In this document: piece after piece, positions 57,939-64,000 of the stretch
How positions within the stretch are numbered: position 1 is the stretch's first letter
How the letters are laid out: the number at the start of each line of letters is the position of its first letter
NCBI RefSeq assembly: GCF_041821065.1
Contig: NZ_JBGUAX010000010.1
Coordinates: forward strand, 1 to 64,000
Source: Egicoccus sp. AB-alg2
GTDB lineage: Bacteria > Actinomycetota > Nitriliruptoria > Nitriliruptorales > Nitriliruptoraceae
Length of the DNA: 64,000 bases
Direction of reading: 5' to 3'
Translations under genes and position numbers: made by a program
The notes under the pieces: generated by a model
What the model was told of the DNA's origin: nothing
Seen by the model: only the letters and a program-made list of their open reading frames with translations
Database searches by the model: none

Positions 57939-58379
<441 letters not shown>

Positions 58380-58426: not shown

Positions 58427-58582
58427 GTGTGTCTCCCCGGGCCCCTCGTCGGCGGCCGATCGGCGCAGGTGTTGCGCCCTGCGGCCACCGCCGCGGTCCG
58501 CCCTGGACAAGCCCGAACTAGCTCACAAGGATGCCCACCGACTCGTCGCCCGAGGGAGACGACGGGTCCGGAGAGGGAGTCC

Positions 58583-60112
58583 ATGACAAGACGCAGGAGG
58601 TGGGCCAACGCGGTGCTCGTGCCCGCGCTGGTGCTCACGTTGGGGGCGACACCCGCCCAGGACGGACTGCCGATGCCGCCCGGCGACGCCCACGGCGTCG
58701 ACTACTGGGGGACGGTGGAGCTGTCGGGCCTGACCTCGATGAACGTGGTGCAGTACGGCAACCGGGACGTGCTGTTCGCCGTCGGCCGCTTCGGGCTGCG
58801 CTCGTACGACATCAGCAACCCGAAGGCGCCGCAGGAACTCGGCCGGCTCGAGTCCGACGCCCTGAAGTTGCCCGGCGACGTGGCGGGGACCTTCTGGCAG
58901 AGCGAGTCGACCAACTTCGACCAGAAGCGCAAGCTCGCATTCCTGTCTCGTGACCCGCGCGCGTTCAACCAGCCGCAGAACCAGGGCATCGCGGGCGTGT
59001 ACATCATCGACATCAGGGATCCGGCGGCGCCCGCGCTGATCACCTTCCACGAGGTCCCGGCGGGCCACACGACCACGTGCATCAACGACTGCCAGTACCT
59101 GTGGAGCGGTGGGCCGGCGCCTCGCGTCGACCAGCCCGCCGACTGGATCGGTCGTCCGATCTTCGTGACCGACGTCCGCAACCCGAAGAAGCCGTTCACT
59201 CATCCCGACCCGATCGACACCGGGCGCTGGCGGGGACGGACCGACTACAGCCACGACGTGCAGGTCGACAACGAGGGCATCGCCTGGGTGTCGGGCCGCG
59301 GCGGCGTGCGTGGCTACCGCACCGAGGGCCGCCACTGGGACCCGGTCCAGGAGCGCTACCGCGTGGCGACCGCCTGGGACCCGATTCCGTACGGCGGTGG
59401 CGAGATGGAGGCGCCCTACACAATGTTGGGTGCCATCCACAACAGCGAGCGGCCCGTCGACGGCCCGCCGGGACAGCGCAACGGCGTCGGTGTCCGCGAC
59501 AGCGAGCGGCCGTTCCGCCCCGGGGCGAACGACGGCGCCGACCTGTCGCTCGGCTACGAGGCGGGCGAACTGATCTACGTGACCGACGAGGCGTTCCTGC
59601 CCTGCGCGGACGCCGGCAAGTTCTGGATCGCGTCGATCAAGGGCTCCACGGACGGTCAGGCCTGGCGCTCGACCGACGAGAACCCCTACCAGTTGGAGAC
59701 GGTGGGTGTCTGGTCGCCATACCAGAAGGAAGGTTCGACCGATGCGGGCACCTGCTCGGCCCACTACTTCAAGATGAAGGACGGCATCGTCGCCGGCGCC
59801 TGGTACTCGCAGGGCTTCCGGTTCCTCGACGTGACCGACCCCACCGACCCGATCCAGGTGGCGTACTTCCGTCCCGACGGCGGCAGCGGCTTCGTGCCGG
59901 TCTGGCACGGCGACGTGATCTACGCCGGCGACAGCAGCCTTGGTATCCACGTGCTCACGCTGGACGCGGACGCCGCGACGGCGTCGGCCGCACGAGCCGA
60001 GGTGCTGGCGCCGAAGATGAACGCGCGTCAGGCGGCGCTGGCCCGCGAGTGGGCGGCCAGCATGCGGCCGGACCCGGCCTACGGCTGGTCCTGTCCGATC
60101 CCAGCCGCCTGA
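58583..60112 (+). CDS. Secreted LVIVD-repeat protein, paralogue without SLH domains
   Basis: 509 residues. A signal peptide (NAVLVPALVLTLGATPAQ) leads directly to the LVIVD propeller region: FGLRSYDISNPKAPQELGRL, VYIIDIRDPAAPALITFHEV, DWIGRPIFVTDVRNPKKPF, FRFLDVTDPTDPIQVAYFRP. It aligns across its length with the body of the SLH protein at 48127, including HTTTCINDCQYLWSGGPA. It lacks the SLH repeats, so it would be released or held in another way. ATG with gagaggga upstream. Its last 34 bases overlap the convergent larC. Confidence 0.87.
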   Translation: MTRRRRWANAVLVPALVLTLGATPAQDGLPMPPGDAHGVDYWGTVELSGLTSMNVVQYGNRDVLFAVGRFGLRSYDISNPKAPQELGRLESDALKLPGDVAGTFWQSESTNFDQKRKLAFLSRDPRAFNQPQNQGIAGVYIIDIRDPAAPALITFHEVPAGHTTTCINDCQYLWSGGPAPRVDQPADWIGRPIFVTDVRNPKKPFTHPDPIDTGRWRGRTDYSHDVQVDNEGIAWVSGRGGVRGYRTEGRHWDPVQERYRVATAWDPIPYGGGEMEAPYTMLGAIHNSERPVDGPPGQRNGVGVRDSERPFRPGANDGADLSLGYEAGELIYVTDEAFLPCADAGKFWIASIKGSTDGQAWRSTDENPYQLETVGVWSPYQKEGSTDAGTCSAHYFKMKDGIVAGAWYSQGFRFLDVTDPTDPIQVAYFRPDGGSGFVPVWHGDVIYAGDSSLGIHVLTLDADAATASAARAEVLAPKMNARQAALAREWAASMRPDPAYGWSCPIPAA

Positions 60113-60942
60113 TCGGTCGGCGTCCCGACGAGCACGGTGAGCAGCCGGTCACCCACCGGGTGACCGGCTGCCGCCGTCCCGGCCGCCGTTCCGGCGGCGC
60201 CGCCCGCCGCGGTCCCGGCCGCCGTTCCGGCGGCGCCGCCCGCCGCGGTTCCGGCCGCGGTGCCGGCCGGCGCCCGCAGCGCCCCGCGGCCGTACCGCTC
60301 CAGCAGCATCGCCGGGATCCGCGGGGCCGGCCGGGCCAGGGCGGCCAGCACGGCCGCTCCGGACGGCGTGGTCAGTTCCACCTCGCGGTCGTCGCCGCGG
60401 ACCGGGAACCCCTGCAGCAGCGGCAGGACCACCGGTGGCGGCACCGGGAAGCGGCCGTGCGCGATGTCGATCACGCCGCCGCCCAGCGCCACCAAGGACG
60501 TCGTGACGTCCTCCACGTCCAGCTCCTCCAGGGCGGTCACGCCGGCGAGGATGCGGGCGACGGCGCGCGGCCGGCCGAGCTCGTGCAGGTGCACGTCGTC
60601 CACCGGGACGCCGTGCACGGCGGCCTCGGCATGGACCAGGGCGTCGACGAGGTCGTGGGCACGCTCGTCGGCGCGGGGCGGCAGCTTCGCACCGTCGACG
60701 GCACCGTGCATCGCCGCGGCGGTGGAGAGCCGGTCACGGGAATCGTGCCCGCGGTCGTCGACGACGACCTCGACGGCCGTGACCTCGCGGGCACAGACGG
60801 GGGTCGCCACGATGCGGGCGGCGACGCCGGCACGCGCCACGACGTCCTGGAGCGCCGCCACCTCCGCGCCGGCGTGCACGAGCGCCCCGAGCCACAGCTC
60901 GGCCGTGATGCCGTCGTCGCACAGCAGGTGGGCGATCCTCAT
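60079..60942 (-). CDS. larC: LarC-like nickel-insertion protein, short form
   Basis: 287 residues. The N-terminal domain is LarC-like: MRIAHLLCDDGITAELWLGA, VHAEAAVHGVPVDDVHLHEL, HLHELGRPRAVARILAG, LVALGGGVIDIAHGRFPVPP and TTPSGAAVLAALARPAPRI. LarC inserts nickel into the pincer cofactor of lactate racemase. The C-terminal CTP-binding domain (LarC2) is missing; after residue about 205 the protein runs into Ala/Gly repeats and a short tail. In some bacteria LarC is split or frameshifted, so a partial form is not unprecedented. ATG start overlaps the larB stop (ATGA). Confidence 0.82.
   Translation of the reverse strand: MRIAHLLCDDGITAELWLGALVHAGAEVAALQDVVARAGVAARIVATPVCAREVTAVEVVVDDRGHDSRDRLSTAAAMHGAVDGAKLPPRADERAHDLVDALVHAEAAVHGVPVDDVHLHELGRPRAVARILAGVTALEELDVEDVTTSLVALGGGVIDIAHGRFPVPPPVVLPLLQGFPVRGDDREVELTTPSGAAVLAALARPAPRIPAMLLERYGRGALRAPAGTAAGTAAGGAAGTAAGTAAGGAAGTAAGTAAAGHPVGDRLLTVLVGTPTDQAAGIGQDQP
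60141..60171 (+). terminator. Terminator hairpin inside the larC coding end
   Basis: gcagccggtcaccc (60141-60154) and gggtgaccggctgc (60158-60171) form perfect 14-bp arms with the 3-base loop acc, 29 bases after the LVIVD gene stop. On the other strand the same bases encode the end of LarC (around AAGHPVGDRLLTVL). Confidence 0.8.
60176..60247. repeat. 36-bp tandem repeat in the larC 3' end
   Basis: Two exact 36-base copies (60176-60211 and 60212-60247), then a diverged partial copy. On the minus strand they encode the Ala/Gly/Thr repeats GTAAGTAAGGAA near the LarC C-terminus. Confidence 0.85.
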
Positions 60943-61646
60943 TCCCACCCGCCGTGTCGCCGGTCCCCGGCACGGACGATGCGCCGCGCGAGCAGGGCCG
61001 CGCCCAGGCCGTTGTCGACGTTGACGACCGCGATGCCGGGCGTACAGGCCGACAGCAGCCCGTGCAGCGCGGTCATGCCGTCCTGCGCGGCGCCGTAGCC
61101 CACGCTGGTCGGCACCGCCACCACCGGGGCGGCCACCAGCCCGGCGACGACCGGTCCCAGGGCGGCCTCCATCCCGGCGACCACGACCACCACGTCGGCC
61201 GCCGCGAGCGTGTCCCGCACGTCCAGCACGCGGTGCAGTCCGGCCACACCGACGTCGGCCAGCACGGTCGGTCGTTCCCCCAGTGCCTCCAGCGTCACGG
61301 CACATTCCGTGGCGACGGTGAGGTCGCTGGTGCCCGCGGTCACGACCACGACGCGGCCCGCCAGCCGGTCGTCGAGCGGTGCCAGCGGGGCGAGCACGAG
61401 CATCCCTGCCTCGGCGTGCACGGCCGCCTGCGGATACGCGTCGGCCACGACCGCGAGGTGTTCCGCCTCGGCGCGGGTCACCAGCACCGGCGCGACGCCG
61501 CCTTCGAGCAGCGCCCGCACCGCCGTGAGCGTCTGGGCCGGCGTCTTGCCGGCCGCGTACACCACCTCCGGCTCGCCGGTGCGGGCGCCGCGTGCGACGT
61601 CGGCACGCACCGTCGGCCCGTCCAGGCCACGCAGGTCGGCGCTCAC
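60939..61646 (-). CDS. larB: Nickel-pincer cofactor biosynthesis protein LarB (PurE-like domain)
   Basis: 235 residues. The C-terminal PurE-like part has VVVVTAGTSDLTVATECAV, VVVVVAGMEAALGPVVAGLV and PTSVGYGAAQDGMTALHGLL. LarB carboxylates and hydrolyses nicotinic acid adenine dinucleotide, the first step of pincer cofactor synthesis. GTG at 61646 with gggagg upstream; overlaps the larE stop (GTGA). Confidence 0.93.
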   Translation of the reverse strand: MSADLRGLDGPTVRADVARGARTGEPEVVYAAGKTPAQTLTAVRALLEGGVAPVLVTRAEAEHLAVVADAYPQAAVHAEAGMLVLAPLAPLDDRLAGRVVVVTAGTSDLTVATECAVTLEALGERPTVLADVGVAGLHRVLDVRDTLAAADVVVVVAGMEAALGPVVAGLVAAPVVAVPTSVGYGAAQDGMTALHGLLSACTPGIAVVNVDNGLGAALLARRIVRAGDRRHGGWE

Positions 61647-62524
61647 GACACACCTCCCACGATCGGCAGCCGTGCGAGGCCGGGACGCGGCCCGCCCGCC
61701 GCCCGCACGTCCGGCAGCGGTGGTGGGGCGGCGTCCGCGCGCAGACCGGCGAGGTCGAGCGTGACGTAGACGTAGCCGGCCTCGCGCAGCCCGGCGACGA
61801 TGGCGTCGCGCCGGGCGACCGCGCGCGGGAGCTCGTCGGCGGGCACCTCGACGCGGGCGAGCTCGTCGTGGTGGCGCACGCGGAAGGCGCGGAAGCCCAG
61901 GTCGAACAGGTGCTGCTCGGCACGTTCGATGCGGGCCAGCTTCTCCGGCGTGACGGCCTCGCCGGTGGGGATGCGCGAGGCGAGGCACGCGAAGGCGGGC
62001 TTGTCCCAGACCGGGAGTGCGAGACGGTGCGCCAGGTCGCGCACGGCGGCCTTGTCGAGGCCGGCCTCGCGCAGCGGCGCCCGCACGCCCCAGGCCTGGG
62101 CGGCGGCGCGGCCGGGCCGGTGGTCGTCGAGGTCGTCGACGACCTCGCCGTGGGCGATGGTGCGCAGCCCGCGCCGGTCCGCCACCGCCCGCAGGGCCGC
62201 GAACTGGTGGTCCTTGCAGAACCGGCAGCGGTTGCGCGGGTTGGCGGCGTAGCGGGCGTCGGCGACCTCGTCGGTGTCGACCACCTCGACGTCGATGCCC
62301 AGCGCGTCCGCCAGCGCCACCGCCGCGTCGAGCTCACGCCGCGGCAGCGACGGCGAGCGCGCCACGACCGCCACCGCCCCCGCGCCCAGCACACGGTGCG
62401 ACACGGCCGACAGCAGGCTGGAGTCGACGCCGCCGGACAGGCCGACGGCGACGCTCTCCAGCTCGGCGACGACGGCCTCCAGCCGGGCGAGAGGGTCCTC
62501 TTCCCGTGCGGCTGCCGGGCTCAT
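61643..62524 (-). CDS. larE: Sulfur transferase LarE (ATP-pyrophosphatase), three-cysteine type
   Basis: 293 residues. The PP-loop is VAVGLSGGVDSSLLSAVSH. Cysteines are in NRCRFCKDHQF (about 112 and 115) and KPAFACLASRIPTGE (about 180). LarE adds sulfur to the pyridine ring of the cofactor. Single-cysteine forms give up their own Cys sulfur, whereas forms with three such cysteines bind a [4Fe-4S] cluster, so this one is probably of the cluster type. ATG overlaps the acyltransferase stop (ATGA). Confidence 0.92.
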   Translation of the reverse strand: MSPAAAREEDPLARLEAVVAELESVAVGLSGGVDSSLLSAVSHRVLGAGAVAVVARSPSLPRRELDAAVALADALGIDVEVVDTDEVADARYAANPRNRCRFCKDHQFAALRAVADRRGLRTIAHGEVVDDLDDHRPGRAAAQAWGVRAPLREAGLDKAAVRDLAHRLALPVWDKPAFACLASRIPTGEAVTPEKLARIERAEQHLFDLGFRAFRVRHHDELARVEVPADELPRAVARRDAIVAGLREAGYVYVTLDLAGLRADAAPPPLPDVRAAGGPRPGLARLPIVGGVS

Positions 62525-63432
62525 GCGCCACCTCCCCGTGCCGGCCACACCCGACGGCGGGCGTCGCGGTCGTCGGGTTCCAGCAGCTCCCAGCGCCGCC
62601 GCCAGTCGGCCACCTGGGGCCCGCGGGCGCTGGGCGTCTCGCCCTTCTGACGGTTGCGCATGGCGGTCCACCAGTCGGTGCGGTGCTCGTCGAGCAGCAC
62701 GGCGATGCTGTCCTCCAGGCGGCCGGTGAGTGCGGTGACCGGCTCGTCGGCGCGGGCCCGCAGCGGCGCGCCGAACCGCACCCGGACCCTGGGCCGGCCG
62801 GAGACGGGCCAGGCCGCGCCACGCGGCATCGCCCGCCACGAACCCTCGATCGCGACCGGTACGATCGCGACACCGGCCGTCTTGGCGAGGTGGGCGGCGC
62901 CGTGGCGGAACCGCCCGGCCCACCCGTCCTTGGAGCGGGTGCCCTCGGGGAACAGCAGCAGGTGGTTGCCGGCGGCGAGCAGGTCGTCGGGCAGTTCGCT
63001 GCGGCTGCGCTGCGTGCGGTCGATCGGCACCGCGTTGAACACCAGCGCGGTGGCGGCCGCCCGCCACCAGGCGTCGAAGAAGTAGTCGGAGGCGGCGACG
63101 GTCACGGTCTTGCGACGGACCTCGGGCGGCAGCGCGGTCAGCACGAGCGGGGCGTCGAGGTGGCTGGAGTGGTTGGGGGCGAGCACGACCGGTGCCCGGG
63201 CCGCCTCCAGGACCCGTTCGCGGTCCTCGACCGTGATGTCCAGCTGCGAGGCCAGCAGCGGCGCCAGCACGCCCGCCTGCAGGCCGGTGCGGGCCACGCG
63301 GGCCGGTCGCGTCCGCGACCAGCCGGTCGGGAACGGTCGCGGCCCGGGCGCCTGCACGGTGTCCACGACCGTGCCGGGCGGCAGCGGCCGCCGGCCCCAG
63401 CGCCAGTCGCGCGCCGCCTCGCGCAGTCGCAT
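62521..63432 (-). CDS. 1-acylglycerol-3-phosphate acyltransferase-like (PlsC) protein inside the lar operon
   Basis: 303 residues. PlsC motifs are APNHSSHLDAPLVLTALPPE (NHxxxxD), PIDRTQRSRSELP, LFPEGTRSKDG and IVPVAIEGSWRAMPRG. It would acylate a glycerol phosphate or another hydroxyl acceptor at the membrane. Its ATG overlaps the stop of the larA-like gene by one base (TGATG) and its stop overlaps larE (ATGA), so it is embedded in a lar operon where an acyltransferase has no known role. Confidence 0.9.
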   Translation of the reverse strand: MRLREAARDWRWGRRPLPPGTVVDTVQAPGPRPFPTGWSRTRPARVARTGLQAGVLAPLLASQLDITVEDRERVLEAARAPVVLAPNHSSHLDAPLVLTALPPEVRRKTVTVAASDYFFDAWWRAAATALVFNAVPIDRTQRSRSELPDDLLAAGNHLLLFPEGTRSKDGWAGRFRHGAAHLAKTAGVAIVPVAIEGSWRAMPRGAAWPVSGRPRVRVRFGAPLRARADEPVTALTGRLEDSIAVLLDEHRTDWWTAMRNRQKGETPSARGPQVADWRRRWELLEPDDRDARRRVWPARGGGA

Positions 63433-64000
63433 CAGCGCACCTCCGCGAGCGTCAGCGGTGGGGCGTGCAGGTAGGTGATCGACGGGTCGCGACCGACCGT
63501 GTCGCTGGCCATCTCCAGCGCGTCGGTGAGCGTGCCGGCGGCACGGAAGCCCATGCGCCGGGCGACGGCCGGGTCGGCCCCGACCCAGATCACGTCGCCG
63601 AGGTGGTCCATGCCGTGGGCGCCCCAGTACCACATGTAGAACGGGTGCACGCCGTGGTAGGCGTGCGACTCGCGGTAGAGGTGCACGTACCACGGGTCGG
63701 CGGCGTAGGCCTGCTCGTACTTGCTCTCGATCAGCGCCGGGTCGGTGGTGTCGGCCAGCACCTGGTCGAAGAAGTCGATGTAGGACGGGTGGTGGACCTG
63801 GTGGAACTCGCGCCGCAGCGGGTGGAACAGGATCATCACGCCGCCGTGGCGGACCAGCGGGCGGCCCCGGTACATGTTGAAGAAGTACCCGAGGCCCATG
63901 CACATGGCCAGGATCGGGTTCATGATCGAGTTGACGTTGTAGGGCCCGACGTAGGGGATGCCGGTCACCAGCACGTCGGTCTGCCCGTCGACCTCGACCA
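63432..64000 (-). CDS. LarA-like protein (lactate racemase domain family), C-terminal part, cut by window edge
   Basis: The last 189 residues of a protein that continues beyond the window. ILVTGIPYVGPYNV-like sequence LVTGIPYVGPYNVNSIMNPI, then MYRGRPLVRHGGVMILFHP, and FYMWYWGAHGMDHLGDVIW are typical of the C-terminal half of LarA homologues. LarA uses the nickel-pincer cofactor to racemise or epimerise 2-hydroxy acids; homologues have varied substrates. The coupling with larE, larB and larC supports the call. The N-terminal half, which binds the cofactor, is not visible. Confidence 0.75.
   Translation of the reverse strand, partial: VEVDGQTDVLVTGIPYVGPYNVNSIMNPILAMCMGLGYFFNMYRGRPLVRHGGVMILFHPLRREFHQVHHPSYIDFFDQVLADTTDPALIESKYEQAYAADPWYVHLYRESHAYHGVHPFYMWYWGAHGMDHLGDVIWVGADPAVARRMGFRAAGTLTDALEMASDTVGRDPSITYLHAPPLTLAEVR

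Follow-up and report, generated by a model that had tools for sequence, protein, structure and literature searches.

To our knowledge, isomerizations of 2-hydroxy acids are the only reactions described for the nickel-pincer cofactor. Characterized homologues of the lactate racemase LarA use 2-hydroxy acids as substrates (PMC11770544, PMC7583248), and in these proteins Arg75 binds the phosphate of the cofactor as well as the carboxylate of the substrate (PMC12611868). LarAH14 is an orphan family in the literature: it has been named, and the protein of Frankia sp. was inactive in all seven 2-hydroxy-acid assays (lactate, hydroxyisovalerate, hydroxyisocaproate, malate, hydroxyglutarate, phenyllactate and gluconate; PMC7583248). 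For homologues without His174, another hydride-mediated reaction was suggested by Desguin et al. 2020 (PMC7583248). The elb ether-lipid operon of Myxococcus xanthus (ElbD, ElbB and ElbE) consists of fatty-acyl reductase (FAR), 1-acylglycerol-3-phosphate acyltransferase (AGPAT)-like and HAD parts, with no LarA reported there (PMC9131029). The locus described here lies in Egicoccus sp. AB-alg2, an actinobacterial genome of 4.8 Mb and 98% completeness; the window analyzed is positions 1-64000 of contig C10 (NZ_JBGUAX010000010.1), and a LarA homologue is encoded at its end. As in the lactate racemase operon of Lactiplantibacillus plantarum, larB, larC and larE stand beside a LarA-fold protein, and as in the elb operon, a FAR, an AGPAT-like acyltransferase and a HAD part are found in one operon. 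On balance we consider it probable that the locus holds an ancient cassette of actinobacteria for lipid biosynthesis, which contains a nickel-pincer LarA and was joined in this genus by larE, larB and larC, and that its LarAH14 protein likely acts on a hydroxyl group of a glycerol- or acyl-linked lipid. It is a known family in a new functional setting and not a new kind of protein.

Four genes of the minus strand make up the cassette: a fatty-acyl reductase/HAD-IB phosphatase fusion (FARHAD; contig positions 66245-68590, 781 aa), a Zn-dependent MDR dehydrogenase related to polyol dehydrogenases (65037-66245, 402 aa), the LarA homologue (63432-65009 including the stop codon, 525 aa) and a PlsC-like 1-acylglycerol-3-phosphate acyltransferase (62521-63432, 303 aa; PF01553, E 5e-22). 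The first two lie outside the window, whose edge also cuts the LarA gene at 64000, and the operon runs on to at least contig position 68590. The fusion and dehydrogenase genes overlap by 1 nt, the dehydrogenase gene ends 27 nt before larA, and larA and plsC overlap by 1 nt (TGATG). Active-site motifs of the dehydrogenase and of the fusion are conserved, as are the NHxSHxD and PEGxR motifs of PlsC (101 sequences).

Conservation was examined in 396 genomes drawn evenly from the phylum, 91 of which carry LarA orthologues (53-90% identity), and in gene neighborhoods, 40 from genomes of this sample (36 with close LarA orthologues) and 80 from named loci; the latter were the 80 best hits, so close families are over-represented. 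The named loci span Frankia, Parafrankia, Actinomadura, Actinoallomurus, Nocardioides, Kribbella, Actinopolymorpha, Phytohabitans, Streptomyces aculeolatus, Pseudonocardiales, and metagenome-assembled genomes of Acidimicrobiales and Nitriliruptorales. Among the 88 loci outside Rubrobacter with enough flanking sequence, the order reductase-HAD, dehydrogenase, LarA, PlsC is kept on a single strand in 87, and the sole exception is without the dehydrogenase; PlsC immediately follows LarA in all 88, and the median gaps between dehydrogenase and LarA and between LarA and PlsC are about 30 nt. When neighbors at 116 loci were clustered without supervision, disregarding clusters of antisense frames, the cassette members dominated (LarA 116, reductase-HAD 108, dehydrogenase 108, PlsC 99), followed by the cofactor genes (larE 27, larB 27, larC 25), and the next family reached 14. 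In the phylum sample, LarA and the fusion occur together in 83 of the 96 genomes having at least one of them, 8 and 5 having one alone and 300 neither (Fisher p 3e-69, uncorrected for relatedness). In a cassette-free genome of the same genus (G009), the flanks corresponding to 58008-58375 and 68738-69745 are collinear and only 119 bp apart, so that a block of about 10.4 kb is either there or missing as a whole. The conservation far exceeds chance, and the ancient unit is the upstream part (reductase-HAD, dehydrogenase, LarA and PlsC), not larEBC; neither coincidental neighborhood nor a plsC inserted locally accounts for an order that 87 of 88 loci conserve. A preliminary description of this stretch had tied the acyltransferase to LarA, and this tie holds widely among relatives. 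In the literature searched, to which Table S1 of PMC7583248 did not belong, we found no actinobacterial cluster of FAR-HAD, LarA and PlsC; this context of fusion, dehydrogenase and PlsC is likewise not described there for the LarAH14/15/16 family.

The LarA protein belongs to that family, because it scores 903.6 bits against the LarAH14/15/16 equivalog NF052592.1 (cut-off 740), which the cassette LarAs of Parafrankia and of the Rubrobacter family also pass; in contrast to the L. plantarum enzyme, it falls far below the cut-off of lactate racemase (NF033504; 68.2 bits against 460). It has a Lar_N domain (PF09861, 1e-38), and its AlphaFold (AF2) model (pLDDT 92) has the LarA fold, the best Foldseek match being 9q3k (TMq 0.78). 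Residues D82, H124, K199 and H215, which align with Asp72, His108, Lys184 and His200 of LarA, are invariant in 117 of 117 sequences. By contrast, the region of the inverting His174 reads N188-[VIL]-[NTS] (positions 189/190), with His in none of the 117, and the equivalent of Arg75, position 85, is always hydrophobic (L, I, C or V; 117/117). The best structural matches, LarA_Sp and LarA_Bw (PDB 9q3k and 9q3j; PMC12611868), are also without His174; they share about 20% identity with the protein studied here, carry Lys at the Arg75 position in place of Leu, Ile, Cys or Val, and stand in a context of carbohydrate metabolism, unlike the lipid context of the present locus. The absence of the inverting His is consistent with a hydride being removed and returned on the same face, and that of Arg75 with a substrate that has no free carboxylate. 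An ordinary lactate-racemase operon was rejected on the NF033504 score and these residues, and the two losses together with the Frankia assays disfavor a hydroxy acid as the substrate of LarAH14.

The cofactor genes follow plsC on the same strand: larE for the sacrificial sulfur transferase (61643-62524, 293 aa; TIGR00268, 297.7 bits against a cut-off of 150), larB for nickel-pincer cofactor biosynthesis (60939-61646, 235 aa, GTG start; NF033503, 230.5 bits against 175) and larC, of which only the LarC1 part is present (60079-60942, 287 aa; TIGR00299, 127.7 bits against 90), so that the host genome has all three. The tail of larC (60160-60300) is of low complexity, rich in Ala, Gly and Thr, and arises from near-identical GC-rich tandem repeats. 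The short overlaps noticed in the preliminary description, 1 nt between larA and plsC and 4 nt at each of plsC/larE, larE/larB and larB/larC, were confirmed, and from them the five genes appear to be translated as a single unit. The coupling of plsC to larE proved to be local: only the nearest relatives (L043-L045) have larB, larC and larE straight after plsC, and larE is already inverted in L046. These genes turn up close to the cassette at 27 loci, ordered in about ten different ways, which suggests that they have become linked to it repeatedly; their membership in the ancient core was rejected, since they are linked in only 27 of 116 loci and the arrangements vary. The conserved link is that of LarA with lipid genes, and the cofactor genes are attached separately. 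At the genome level the association is nevertheless clear, LarE and LarB being over the cut-off in 63 and 62 of 70 LarA-positive genomes and LarC being present in 80 of 91 LarA-positive genomes versus 167 of 305 LarA-negative ones (4 of 4 versus 2 of 15 in the own family).

A variant of the cassette is found in the family that includes Rubrobacter radiotolerans, which carries it (first 20 kb of the contig identical to NZ_CP007516.1). Here a gene for the glycerol-3-phosphate acyltransferase PlsY (PF02660) lies directly upstream of the reductase-HAD gene, while LarA is not followed by PlsC and is sometimes a few genes away. Two glycerolipid acyltransferases, PlsC and PlsY, in one setting argue for a glycerol-phosphate lipid. 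At three loci of this family (L071, L072 and L077), the dehydrogenase gene and larA are separated by inserted genes, among them those for protoglobin and a MOSC protein. The preliminary description had proposed a lipid- or glycerol-linked hydroxy acid as the substrate or product; the link to lipids has been strengthened by the two further lipid-type genes in the unit and by PlsY in Rubrobacter, while the hydroxy acid has been weakened by the lost residues and the inactive Frankia protein, so that a lipid hydroxyl lacking a free carboxylate now seems the likelier of the two.

We infer the cofactor use, substrate, chemistry and product of LarAH14 from the observed gene content, conservation, co-occurrence, lost inversion residues and retained cofactor residues. 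Most likely, it would transfer a hydride at the hydroxyl of a glycerol- or acyl-linked lipid intermediate and not of a free 2-hydroxy acid. Judging from gene content, the reductase would yield a fatty alcohol or aldehyde, the HAD part would dephosphorylate, the MDR dehydrogenase would serve redox of a secondary alcohol, LarA would perform a hidden hydride transfer, and PlsC or PlsY would acylate the glycerolipid. The leading specific model, which we put forward tentatively, is synthesis of alkyl-ether glycerolipids. Bacterial ether lipids are made by the glycerol ester reductase (Ger/PlsA) route, and PF09989, which we take to be a marker of this route, was found in 0 of 62 cassette carriers. 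The ether model leads because of this absence, the parts shared with the elb operon, and the mixed ether/ester lipids by which Rubrobacterales are reported to be dominated, as cited in PMC11150832. In the ether model, the reductase would supply the fatty alcohol, and the single-His LarAH14 would transiently oxidize the C2 hydroxyl of 1-acyl-glycerol-3-phosphate and return the hydride on the side from which it was taken; acyl could be exchanged for alkyl while the ketone exists, or the ketone could pass to the dehydrogenase, and sn-2 would then be acylated by PlsC. The full statement that LarAH14 is a non-racemizing nickel-pincer enzyme, in which one His serves a transient C2-OH oxidation of a lipid resembling lysophosphatidic acid, the neighboring acyl group is swapped for a fatty alcohol and the hydride is given back with retention, is rather improbable in all its particulars.

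Several observations weigh against the favored explanation. The named loci are not a random sample. All three of larB, larC and larE are lacking in 7 of 70 LarA-positive genomes (G263, G294, G106, G160, G181, G084 and G213), where 3.6 would be expected from incompleteness; two of these (G106 and G160) belong to one genus and two are nearly complete (G263, 98%; G294, 96%), so a genuine absence in some lineages is possible, and G263 is also without the dehydrogenase gene. Arg75, a contact to the cofactor phosphate, is lost in LarAH14. Unlike in the L. plantarum operon, LarC2 is absent here: the PF01969 match of larC reaches only position 219 of 375, all four carriers of the own family (including L043, L044 and L045) retain only the LarC1 half of LarC, and LarC2 sought in the four cassette genomes of this family (G000, G051, G215 and G317) gave no match. 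The next family (G279) has a full LarC. A frameshift hiding LarC2 downstream was rejected, since no frame of the larC tail gives a LarC2 reading. As for ether lipids, ElbD has acyl-CoA ligase and acyl carrier protein domains whereas the operon proteins of the cassette have none by Pfam, we found no ether-lipid documentation for Frankia, Nocardioides, Kribbella or Actinomadura, and carriers may have a distant homologue of AGPS (FAD alkyl synthase) elsewhere in the genome.

The main rival arises from a sister LarA subfamily (44-45% identical, under the LarAH14 cut-off, the same residues lost), whose gene comes right after one for a family III CoA-transferase (L079:9499-12295 and L080:7792-10702) with a diverged acyl-CoA-ligase-like gene nearby, an arrangement that would be compatible with a hydroxyacyl thioester as substrate. 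LarAH14 would then act on a hydroxyacyl thioester of CoA or acyl carrier protein, the reductase would produce a long-chain diol, and PlsC would acylate it; the lost carboxylate-binding Arg agrees with a thioester, and acyl thioesters are the substrates of FAR enzymes. However, the CoA transferase lies outside the cassette studied, PlsY in Rubrobacter and PlsC elsewhere indicate glycerol phosphate, and our literature search gave no report of diol lipids for the carrier taxa, so we judge this route unlikely. Racemization of a lipid-linked or free 2-hydroxy acid by single-His and possibly one-way chemistry would agree with the substrates of the characterized homologues and with the NCBI family name 'NPN-dependent hydroxyacid isomerase', but it is improbable in view of the equivalents of Arg75 and His174 lost throughout, the seven negative Frankia assays, and conserved neighbors among which no recognized family is typical of 2-hydroxy-acid use. 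That LarAH14 has abandoned the nickel-pincer cofactor for another role in the lipid cassette, with a different cofactor or a structural one, would accord with the seven genomes without cofactor genes, the lost Arg75 and the truncated LarC of the own family, but it is quite improbable because the Lys tether, Ni-ligand His, catalytic His and Asp are invariant even in G263 and G294, and because co-occurrence and repeated linkage with larB, larC and larE are strong.

Of the other features in the window, an open reading frame of 561 aa on the plus strand (58427-60112) is convergent with larC and overlaps its end; it has no Pfam match and is probably secreted. It was rejected as a cassette member, because it does not adjoin the cassette in G051. 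An Rfam scan of the window gave no match.

Homologues of LarA without His174 are an open puzzle, and a deeply conserved lipid cassette offers a concrete candidate class of substrate for the orphan LarAH14 family, since a LarA standing in a row of lipid genes points to a job in lipid synthesis and not in small-acid metabolism. The cassette is also a candidate for formation of the ether bond in Rubrobacter, where the ester-reductase marker was not found. If true, transient oxidation of the C2 hydroxyl would let aerobic actinobacteria make ether lipids by a redox-neutral route.

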